64,000 bases of DNA, from the NCBI GenBank assembly GCA_015066445.1, contig SVOK01000001.1, positions 123,315-187,314 on the forward strand, read 5' to 3'. Source of the stretch: Oscillospiraceae bacterium. GTDB lineage: Bacteria > Bacillota > Clostridia > Oscillospirales > Acutalibacteraceae. Shown one piece after another: positions 635-59,723 of the stretch. A program made the position numbers and the translations under genes. The notes under the pieces were generated by a model, which saw only the letters and a program-made list of their open reading frames with translations, ran no database searches and had not been told where the DNA came from. How positions within the stretch are numbered: position 1 is the stretch's first letter; every line of letters begins with the position of its first letter.

Positions 635-2401
635 TTAAATGTTTTGACTTGCCATTTCATAGAATTTATAATAAATTCCCTTTTGTTCTAATAGCTCCTC
701 GTGATTACCTTCTTCCATAATTCCCTCATCTGTCAGCACCATAATACGGTCAGATTTGCGAATTGTGGAAAGTCGGTGAGCTATCGTTATTGTCGTTCTG
801 CCCTCGGATAGTCTTGCAAGTGATTTTGCCACCGCAAACTCGCTTTCATTATCAAGGGCACTTGTAGCCTCATCAAGAATAATAATAGGCGGATTTTTAA
901 GAAAAACACGTGCTATGCTTATTCTCTGTTTTTGTCCGCCCGAAAGCTTTACTCCTCTTTCGCCGACATAGGTATTATATCCGTCCTTAAGCTCAGAGAT
1001 AAACTCGTGTGCGCCTGCCTTTTTTGCCGCCTCTATAATCTCCTCCATAGTGGCATCTGGCTTACCGTAGGAAATGTTATCATAAACCGTACCCGAAAAA
1101 AGATAAACATCCTGCTGAACCATACCGATATTATCACGAAGCGATTTTAAGGTATATTCTTTGATATTTTTACCGTCAAGCAGTATTTCACCCTCGGTCA
1201 CATCATAAAAGCGAGGAACTAAGTTGCAAAGGGTGGTTTTTCCCCCGCCGGAAGGGCCTACAAAAGCTATCTTCTCACCGCTTTTTATCTTAATATTAAG
1301 TCCCGTAAACACTTTGTTGTGGTCATCGGGATATTCAAAGGAAACATTTTTAAATTCGATATTTCCTTTGGGGTCCTTAAGCTCTGTAGCATCAGGCTCG
1401 TCAAATATTTCAATATCAGCATCCATTATCTGCAAAAAGCGTTCAATACCCGTAAGGCCTCTTTGGAACTGCTCGGAAAACTCAATAATTCGGCGAATAG
1501 TTGCAATAAAGGTAGTAACATACAGCAGATACGCCACAAGGTCGCCCGGTGTTATTTGCTCGTTTATCATAAACAGACTGCCCGCTATCACTACTGTAGC
1601 ATACATTATACCGTCAAACATACGGGTAGTGGTGGAGAAAGCGCCCATAAACTTATATCCCAATTTTTTAACAGAGAAAAATTCCACGTTATCCTTTTCA
1701 AACTTTTCCTGTTCAATATCCTCATTGGCAAAAGCTTTCACAACCTTTTGCCCTAAAAGAGAATCTTCAATTCGGGCATTAAGCTCACCTATCATAACAC
1801 GCTGTTTTCGGAAGGTCTCCTTCATTCGTTTGTTAAGCCAACCGCAAATAACAAGCATAACAGGGATCACCACAAATATAATAAGGGTAAGCGGAACGTT
1901 AATTTTCATAAGAATCACAAAGGAAACAACGCCCTTGATTCCTGCAATGAAAAATTCCTCGGGACAGTGATGCGAAAACTCCGTAACATCAAAAAGGTCA
2001 TTGGTAATCCTACCCATTATCTGACCAACCTTGGTATTATTGAAATAGCTGTCTGAAAGCTTATGTAAATGAGAATAAGCCTCTCTGCGCATATCAGTCT
2101 CAATCTTAGTGCCCATCACATGGCCCACATAAGCCATATAATAATAAGCTGCAGAATCAATAATGCGAAGTATAATATAAACTGCGCCAACTGCTAAAAT
2201 ATACTCCACTTTAATTGATTTTAAATCCTCTATACCGGCATTTGTAATCTCACGCATAATGAGCGGTAATATAATTTCGCAAACCGTGGTTAAAGCGGCG
2301 CAAAATAAATCCATTACTACTGTGGGTATATATTTTTTATAATATGGCATAAAGCGGCGTAAAAGCACACCTGAGCTATATTTCCGTTCTTCCTTTTTCA
2401 T
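635..2401 (-). CDS. ABC transporter ATP-binding/permease (exporter type)
   Basis: N-terminal TM domain; Walker A GPSGGGKTT, signature LSGGQKQR, Walker B IIILDEATSALD. Internal ATG (MKKEERK) preferred over the track start at 2413. Confidence 0.93.
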   Translation of the reverse strand: MKKEERKYSSGVLLRRFMPYYKKYIPTVVMDLFCAALTTVCEIILPLIMREITNAGIEDLKSIKVEYILAVGAVYIILRIIDSAAYYYMAYVGHVMGTKIETDMRREAYSHLHKLSDSYFNNTKVGQIMGRITNDLFDVTEFSHHCPEEFFIAGIKGVVSFVILMKINVPLTLIIFVVIPVMLVICGWLNKRMKETFRKQRVMIGELNARIEDSLLGQKVVKAFANEDIEQEKFEKDNVEFFSVKKLGYKFMGAFSTTTRMFDGIMYATVVIAGSLFMINEQITPGDLVAYLLYVTTFIATIRRIIEFSEQFQRGLTGIERFLQIMDADIEIFDEPDATELKDPKGNIEFKNVSFEYPDDHNKVFTGLNIKIKSGEKIAFVGPSGGGKTTLCNLVPRFYDVTEGEILLDGKNIKEYTLKSLRDNIGMVQQDVYLFSGTVYDNISYGKPDATMEEIIEAAKKAGAHEFISELKDGYNTYVGERGVKLSGGQKQRISIARVFLKNPPIIILDEATSALDNESEFAVAKSLARLSEGRTTITIAHRLSTIRKSDRIMVLTDEGIMEEGNHEELLEQKGIYYKFYEMASQNI

Positions 2402-2420
2402 CAAAATCACCATTTGAATT

Positions 2421-2809
2421 ATAATGATTGTAGTTAGTAGAAACGCTTAAAAAGCGTTTCGGCAAGCCACTTTTAGAGTGGCTTCGGCAAAATTAAATCA
2501 TAACATTTAATTTTGCTGGACACTCATTTCAATGGAAAAGGACAAATTTTATATAAAATTTGTCGCAAAATCAAAGATTTTGTAGCGAAACAGAATTGTT
2601 TCGCCTAACCTATTCCATTATATTAATGGTTGGTGAAACACAAAGTGTTTCAGTATGTGGGAACACATACAATTTGCATTTAATGCAAATTCCAACCTTA
2701 ATGCAATCATAAGTTGCTTGTCAATATCAATTGACAAGCGGTAAATAAATTTACCGAAAACAATTAAAATTGTTTTCAACTTCTTATGATTATATTACTA
2801 ATTATCATT
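2421..2809. repeat. Dense array of inverted repeats: four modules, each an outer stem enclosing three hairpins, flanked by a partial outer inverted repeat
   Basis: Read directly. Hairpins include 2440-2448/2452-2460, 2464-2471/2477-2484, 2487-2498/2505-2516, 2541-2552/2553-2564, 2566-2572/2576-2582, 2585-2592/2597-2604, 2634-2641/2645-2652, 2653-2659/2664-2670, 2671-2679/2683-2691, 2716-2725/2730-2739, 2739-2746/2749-2756, 2756-2765/2768-2777. Confidence 0.85.
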
Positions 2810-2828
2810 AAAATCAAGATATAAAAGT

Positions 2829-45496: not shown

Positions 45497-45624
45497 CCCC
45501 CATAAAAGATTAATCTCTCAAACGTTCGATATTATATCACCGCAAAACAGCAATGTCAATGCCACCAAAAAATATTTTTCAAAAATACTTGACATTTTTT
45601 AAACTTTAGTGTATAATCCCATTG

Positions 45625-45752
45625 TTGCGATCCAAAGACAGCAGGTGGCGTTTCGCCGTAAGTTTATCGCCTGCCGAGGTACGTGCTTAAACTTAACACT
45701 GAAATTATGTTATTTTTATGCCTGTTCCTTATGTCTTGGAACAGGCATTTTA
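45625..45752 (+). ncRNA. Ribosomal protein L10 leader (autoregulatory) with terminal hairpin
   Basis: agacagcaggtggcgtttcgccgtaag...cgcctgccgaggtacgtgctta... then atgcctgttcc-ttatgtctt-ggaacaggcatttta directly upstream of rplJ. Confidence 0.85.
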
Positions 45753-45776
45753 TCGTTTTGTCGGAGGTGAATTACA

Positions 45777-54580: not shown

Positions 54581-55276
54581 TCAGATTTTGGTTATTTCAA
54601 ATTTGTATCCAACACCCCAAACGGTTTTTAGCGACCATTCGTCTGATACATTTTCAAGCTTTTCTCTGAGTCTTTTAACGTGAACATCAACCGTTCTTGA
54701 GTCACCGTAATAATCAAAGCCCCAAACCTCATCAAGAAGCTGGTCGCGGGTATAAACTCTGTTAGGATTGCTTGCAAGATGATATATAAGCTCCAACTCC
54801 TTAGGCGGGGTATCAACCCTTACTCCGTTAACTACAAGCTCATAATTGGTAAGATTAATTTTGAGCTTATCATATCTTACCTCGCTCACCTGATTCTGCT
54901 TATCGTTATCATTACTTCTGCGAAGCACCGCCTTTATTCTTGCGATTACCTCTTTAGTATCAAAAGGCTTGCTAACATAATCATCAGCACCAAGCTCAAG
55001 GCCTAAAATCTTATCAAAAGTCTCGCCCTTAGCTGTGAGCATAATAATAGGAGTATCACTTGTTTTGCGGATTTCTCGGCACACCTGCCAGCCGTCAAGT
55101 AAGGGAAGCATAATATCAAGAAGTATTAAATCAGGGTTATGCTGTTTTGCGTATTCAACCGCCAGCTGACCGTCATTTGCAACAACGGTCTGAAAACCGT
55201 CCTTTTCAAGATATAATCTTAAAAGCTCGCATATATTTTCATCGTCATCAACAATAAGAATTTTATATTGCATCAT
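54581..55276 (-). CDS. OmpR/PhoB-family response regulator
   Basis: KILIVDDDENICELLRLYL; DLILLDIMLPLLDG; C-terminal winged helix RTVDVHVKRLREKL. Confidence 0.94.
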   Translation of the reverse strand: MMQYKILIVDDDENICELLRLYLEKDGFQTVVANDGQLAVEYAKQHNPDLILLDIMLPLLDGWQVCREIRKTSDTPIIMLTAKGETFDKILGLELGADDYVSKPFDTKEVIARIKAVLRRSNDNDKQNQVSEVRYDKLKINLTNYELVVNGVRVDTPPKELELIYHLASNPNRVYTRDQLLDEVWGFDYYGDSRTVDVHVKRLREKLENVSDEWSLKTVWGVGYKFEITKI

Positions 55277-55416
55277 AAATCTCACACGCCTTTTATTTAT
55301 ATATATCTTAATAATATAATAATTTTATTACAAGAGTATGAATAATTGTAACATTATTTATTTAAAAAATCTATATGAAAAAACCGCCTTTGTAAAAAAG
55401 GCGGTTAAATTCAGAC

Positions 55417-59508: not shown

Positions 59509-59586
59509 GGTGGATGTAGCTTAGTTGGTTAAAGCGCCAGTTTGTGGCACTGGAGACCGTGGGTTCGAGTCCCATCTTCCACCCCA
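59509..59586 (+). tRNA. tRNA-His (anticodon GTG)
   Basis: ggtggatgtagcttagttggttaaagcgccagtttGTGgcactggagaccgtgggttcgagtcccatcttccacccca. Confidence 0.93.
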
Positions 59587-59648: not shown

Positions 59649-59723
59649 TGGGGTGTCGTCAAGCGGTAAGACACAGCACTTTGACTGCTGCATTCGTAGG
59701 TTCGAATCCTGCCACCCCAGCCA
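59649..59723 (+). tRNA. tRNA-Gln (anticodon TTG)
   Basis: tggggtgtcgtcaagcggtaagacacagcactTTGactgctgcattcgtaggttcgaatcctgccaccccagcca. Confidence 0.94.

Follow-up and report, generated by a model that had tools for sequence, protein, structure and literature searches.

The window, the whole 64,000-nucleotide stretch of Oscillospiraceae DNA analysed here, carries a hairpin array at 2420-2794, upstream of an ABC exporter gene on the minus strand, in which nearly the entire sequence is inverted repeat. Folded as RNA, the interval reaches -147.5 kcal/mol, where shuffled sequences average -68.1 (z -15.6); folded as DNA, it reaches -101.3, where they average -35.5 (z -16.0). None of 100 shuffles was as good in either case. 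A sequence-only reading had described this space as a near-total inverted repeat built of four modules, each with three hairpins inside an outer stem. All the stems it named lie where it placed them, the modules and their outer stems are correct, and the folding energy falls outside the range of the shuffled controls that it had proposed. Its grouping of the four modules into a single array does not hold, since modules 1 and 2 form one separately mobile unit (U1) and modules 3 and 4 form another (U2). The array is thus two abutting copies of a dispersed element and not a unique four-module locus. The two units overlap only in the dinucleotide TA at 2621-2622, and BLAST against 40 related genomes returns U1-only and U2-only matches that occur singly elsewhere, spanning either the initial ~205 bp or the final ~175 bp. 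Relatives of U1 in related genomes share ~74-98% identity, in matches confined to the U1 interval. The features of the locus are as follows.

635..2413, minus strand: ABC exporter gene, downstream of the array (from the list of open reading frames).
2420..2622, unstranded: element U1, an intact double cloverleaf TATAATG...CATTATA made of modules 1 and 2; exact full-length match to the end/centre pattern.
2423..2528, unstranded: left cloverleaf of U1, outer stem AATGATTGT/ACACTCATT, hairpins 2440-2460, 2464-2484 and 2487-2516; folds, and provides helices 1-4 of alignment A1.
2525..2534, unstranded: centre of U1, CATTTCAATG (family consensus CATTGCAATG), where both outer stems meet; conserved in alignments A1 and A2 and part of the search pattern.
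2531..2619, unstranded: right cloverleaf of U1, outer stem AATGGAAAAGG/CCTATTCCATT, hairpins 2541-2564, 2565-2582 and 2584-2604; folds, and provides helices 5-8 of A1.
2621..2794, unstranded: element U2, a double cloverleaf that follows the same plan in diverged form, TATTAATG...TGATTATA, made of modules 3 and 4; separate matches in G011, G015, G270 and G271, among others, and two three-hairpin cloverleaves when folded alone.
2789..2817, minus strand: predicted promoter TTGATT-17-TATAAT, in which the end of U2 supplies the -10 hexamer; 10 of 12 consensus positions, a consensus match only.
2796..2809, unstranded: candidate decayed end of a third copy, TACTAATTATCATT, resembling the right end CTAATTATAACCATTA of locus L050; a weak case, with a chance probability of ~1%.

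The segments 2423-2439 and 2796-2809, previously suggested to close the whole array, pair moderately better than shuffled sequence (22 of 2000 shuffles as good). The design probably does not include this stem, as 2796-2809 falls outside U1 and U2 and may be the decayed end of a third copy. The observation that GAAAC stems come first in modules 1 and 3 and last in modules 2 and 4 was right, and it follows from the mirror-image (inverted-repeat) ends of each unit. Transcription from the predicted promoter at 2789..2817 would give the ABC exporter gene a 5' leader comprising U1 and U2; among orthologues of this gene in other genomes, no element match adjoins the gene. Elsewhere in the window, Rfam identifies an ordinary cis-regulatory RNA, the ribosomal protein L10 leader at 45614-45762 on the plus strand (RF00557, 67 bits), and two tRNA genes at 59510-59583 and 59649-59720, also on the plus strand. 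Over 2420-2794, no Rfam family matched at gathering score and relaxed thresholds gave only sub-threshold matches, none credible.

A dispersed family of double cloverleaves

The element follows a constant plan of 188-219 bp: TATAATG, three hairpins within an outer stem, the centre CATTGCAATG, three hairpins within a second outer stem, and CATTATA. Its terminal inverted repeats, TATAATGATTGTAGTTTGTCGAAAC on the left and TATAATGGTTATGGTTAGTCGAAAC on the right, were recovered as a single motif at both ends. BLAST matches occur in 15 of the 40 related genomes, with 16 in the genome of the window and 19 in G001. The pattern TATAATGN{85,112}CATTNNAATGN{72,102}CATTATA, which specifies ends and centre and holds no hairpin information, was found in at least 116 stretches of GTDB genomes; among the GTDB matches listed, 83 structured stretches remained after removal of duplicate loci and a structure filter. 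Nearly all the structured matches listed come from records of Oscillospiraceae, Ruminococcaceae, Clostridiales or Clostridia, and most derive from ruminant, rabbit and termite guts. In the family of the window, the strict pattern occurs in 11 of 200 sampled genomes. Pattern matches in Bacteroidota, archaea, Paenibacillus, Clostridium ihumii and others are unstructured and are taken as chance. All 22 matches in viral contigs are likewise unstructured and serve as a useful negative control. No DNA match was present among 50,697 phage and 72,556 plasmid records, and no structured element carried by a virus, phage or plasmid was found in these records or in the viral contigs. One structured copy (L083, 50-258) lies on a 2-kb contig binned as Alphaproteobacteria, where either mis-binning or horizontal spread is possible.

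Copies of the element are non-coding and mostly adjoin gene ends. The 126 intact copies group into two large clusters and several small ones, and loci L065, L075, L122 and L168 retain the plan with little stem sequence in common. An apparent chimera at L046 (2523-2800), which joins a U2-type left cloverleaf to an unrelated right cloverleaf, suggests exchange at the centre. Alignments A1 and A2 represent the two large, divergent subfamilies, and in both, each of the eight helices has 93-98% of its cells paired. Two-sided changes affect 28 of 79 pairs in A1 (shuffle mean 11) and 35 of 84 in A2 (shuffle mean 15), values reached by none of 500 shuffles in either alignment; such double changes affect every helix of A2 and seven of the eight in A1, where only helix 1 (the left outer stem) lacks them. 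These alignments show that the double-cloverleaf shape is maintained through compensatory change across subfamilies with little common sequence. Selection on structure, as previously proposed, is supported by this covariation.

Mobility and insertion at promoters

The element is dispersed, and in one relative or more its movement is recent. Three left halves in G049 are 100% identical over 139 nt within unrelated flanks, right halves in the same genome reach 100% identity, and many matches to the end motif lie less than 200 bp from contig ends, the assembly having been broken by the copies. Orthologous empty sites were identified by comparing L018 with the window near 55.3 kb, L045 with L010 and L132, and L064 with L147. 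The first of these comparisons places an intergenic empty site at 55270-55330 of the window, orthologous to a site in G001 that holds the element. Dispersed copies, identical copies in unrelated flanks and empty orthologous sites strongly support the earlier suggestion of a mobile element. The proposed comparison of orthologous loci succeeded in finding sites without the element; as the orthologues are only ~70-75% identical, the exact junctions are uncertain. TA lies just outside most ends and is not separable from the conserved end sequence, and the diverged empty sites fit either a TA target duplication or none.

Stacked copies joined at TATAAT occur in the window and at L013 and L035. Derivatives with internal deletions and both ends retained occur at L192 (651-706, ~56 bp), L203 (767-832, ~66 bp) and L202 (890-1026, ~137 bp). 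In L010, L132 and L045, the orthologous promoter has apparent remnants that are shorter still.

The position of the ends relative to promoter signals is strongly biased. Of 229 ends with an intact TATAAT, 15 are preceded at exactly 17 bp by a hexamer that agrees with TTGACA in at least 5/6 positions; other spacings give 1.7 (sd 1.3). When agreement in at least 4/6 positions is required, the corresponding figures are 36 and 11.1 (sd 4.0). Statistically, TATAAT ends thus often lie 17 bp past a -35 hexamer, so that an insertion often either lands on a promoter -10 box or re-creates one. Such a bias would arise either from targeting of -10 boxes or from survival of the insertions that fall there.

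Structure at the level of DNA or RNA

In a strand-symmetric count, the stem cells comprise 6088 Watson-Crick pairs, 27 G-T, 30 A-C and 20 others, so that stems are ~99% Watson-Crick and G-T makes up 0.4% of stem cells; in gene orientation, the counts are 9 G-T and 10 A-C. Relative to co-directional genes, 29 elements lie in the opposite and 21 in the same orientation, without bias. Selection on an RNA from one strand would favour G-U over A-C, and as no such excess is seen, the earlier suggestion of a new one-strand non-coding RNA is unsupported. A G-T excess in a first count on RNAalifold pairs disappeared in two symmetric re-counts and was rejected because RNAalifold itself favours G-U.

Variants found in a single copy leave the pair intact in 34 cases and break it in 117 (n = 151), whereas among variants shared by at least three copies, 29 are Watson-Crick and 22 broken (n = 51; p = 1e-5). 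Stems hold singleton variants almost as often as unpaired columns do, and within G001 alone one-sided differences outnumber compensated ones. We infer from these patterns that inserted copies drift and that the shape is upheld in the lineage that keeps moving. The near-exclusive Watson-Crick pairing, the equality of G-T and A-C, and the opposition of broken singletons to compensated shared variants together make the structure look like one maintained as DNA, in the propagating lineage, and not as one-strand RNA at each site. The equal counts may leave room for a role of RNA hairpins in transcripts.

Search for a mobilising enzyme

No autonomous copy with the ends of the element was found in eight genomes searched with the end motif at up to 3 mismatches, and inverted end pairs 300-4500 bp apart in the fetched loci were incidental, none marking an autonomous copy. 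The interval between two neighbouring G001 copies in L022 contains a long ORF that is not transposase-like by eye. Seven transposase families were searched (PF13358, PF01797, PF01609, PF12762, PF00665, PF00872 and PF01548), and none tracks the element. In element-rich genomes, the families are absent or rare: DDE_3 (IS630-type) is missing from 16 of 16 genomes and IS1595 from 20 of 20, and DDE_Tnp_1 occurs in 2 of 20; rve, Transposase_mut (IS256-type) and IS110 are sporadic and also present in genomes where the element was not detected. More than half of the genomes searched contain Y1 genes, with no evident correlation with the element, and no Y1 gene is detectable in the element-bearing genomes G001, G024, G043, G178, G237 and G256. 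These negative results for transposases and autonomous copies come from draft, incomplete genomes, and partners can be lost. RAYT-like Y1 genes, where present, adjoin GTAG-tagged hairpins unrelated in sequence to the element. Such hairpins near RAYT-like Y1 genes at L212, L214 and L216 represent ordinary REP-like systems of the same genus.

Interpretation

The array is likely to represent a MITE-like mobile DNA element, non-autonomous and with a body of two three-hairpin cloverleaves, that is present here in two copies side by side. In keeping with MITEs, the element is shorter than ~600 bp, non-coding, present in many copies and mostly intergenic, has inverted ends and has moved. It is called MITE-like and not a MITE because no cognate autonomous element or transposase was found, the genomes being drafts from which partners can be lost. 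The element would be mobilised in trans by some enzyme, and propagating copies would require its shape as DNA, whether extruded or single-stranded, with inserted copies drifting afterwards. An inserted copy could serve the gene downstream as its 5' leader, and would offer a fresh TATAAT target at each end, which would explain stacks such as U1 and U2. As for the earlier idea of a DNA structure used by a recombinase, no recombinase was found, and a DNA structure used by an enzyme is the favoured but unproven reading. More speculatively, and rather unlikely in our estimate, the element may exemplify a mobile class that moves as a folded DNA strand of two three-hairpin cloverleaves, served by an enzyme that belongs to none of the usual transposase families, and that targets TATAAT -10 boxes, so that the promoter is kept and a structured 5' leader is installed.

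Competing explanations differ in what the hairpins are for. If the element were a structured RNA, either a regulatory 5' leader or a small RNA that has spread through the genome, its hairpins would be selected within the transcripts of neighbouring genes; the strong fold and the covariation fit this idea, and the many copies lying between a promoter-like signal and a gene start are probably transcribed. It is nevertheless improbable, given that G-T pairs are no commoner than A-C on either count, orientation relative to co-directional genes is close to even, single-copy variants mostly break pairs, and no Rfam family reaches its gathering score. Quite improbable, too, is the proposal that these are ordinary MITEs whose hairpins have been passively perfected as replication switches template from one arm to the other, without any selection on shape. 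Template switching acts on DNA and predicts perfect arms, compensated changes and an absence of strand bias, all of which are seen, but it leaves unexplained why six hairpins are arranged as two sets of three, each trio enclosed by a long-range outer stem with arms 90-100 nt apart, across dissimilar subfamilies, and why single-copy variants stay uncorrected. That the copies are REP- or BIME-like repeats moved by a Y1 (RAYT) transposase seems scarcely probable at all: the element is indeed a hairpin DNA repeat and Y1 genes are widespread in the genomes searched, but the RAYT-like genes adjoin other, GTAG-tagged hairpins, the architecture of the element differs, and six genomes that bear it have no detectable Y1 gene.

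Under the MITE-like reading, the element stands apart from most bacterial MITEs, which are simple foldbacks, in that an elaborate six-hairpin shape is conserved across dissimilar subfamilies and is apparently needed for the spread of the element rather than for a function of each copy. The contribution of DNA secondary structure to mobility can thereby be put to the test. Through the bias towards -10 boxes, such repeats have a concrete means of rewiring gene expression throughout a large group of gut bacteria not yet in culture, and with common transposases scarce in the genomes that carry the element, one must ask what moves it.

Comparison with known systems

Bacterial MITEs that end in TA and yield transcripts able to fold are well established (PMC2229807, PMC10969869). 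The structures described in these two reviews are long stem-loops or, in the case of CIR, a pair of arms; a cloverleaf is mentioned in neither. A literature search for cloverleaf MITEs and for MITEs in Oscillospirales yielded no relevant paper. The Correia or NEMIS repeats of Neisseria are intergenic elements of 100-200 bp with inverted ends, TA termini, many copies, putative promoters and folding transcripts (PMC2229807). The present element is similarly short, intergenic and multicopy, with inverted ends and TA termini, but it differs in its two three-hairpin cloverleaves, its covarying stems and its hosts among gut Clostridia. The ends and sequences of Correia repeats are presumably unrelated to those of the element. 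CIR, from Caulobacter and Brucella, consists of two stem-loop arms and a linker with conserved structure (PMC2229807). In place of two single arms, the element has two cloverleaves of three hairpins each.

RUP, BOX and SPRITE are small interspersed repeats of pneumococcus, a Gram-positive host (PMC3049150), and SPRITE and BOX contain motifs resembling structured RNA (PMC10969869). The element is likewise a small interspersed repeat of a Gram-positive host. To our knowledge, none of these three repeats has the double-cloverleaf plan. RUP is linked with a transposase of the IS630 type, but no DDE_3 gene turned up in the 16 genomes examined here. The bcr1 element of the Bacillus cereus group, a dispersed element of ~155 bp with mobile and folding features, differs in size, ends and host, and we know of no double cloverleaf in it. 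Finally, REPs measure 20-40 bp and carry a tag at one end (PMC3733652). With REPs and BIMEs, the element shares its character as a palindromic, intergenic, non-coding DNA repeat; unlike them, it is not a tagged palindrome of 20-40 bp beside a Y1 gene, and the REP-like hairpins coexist with it as a separate system.
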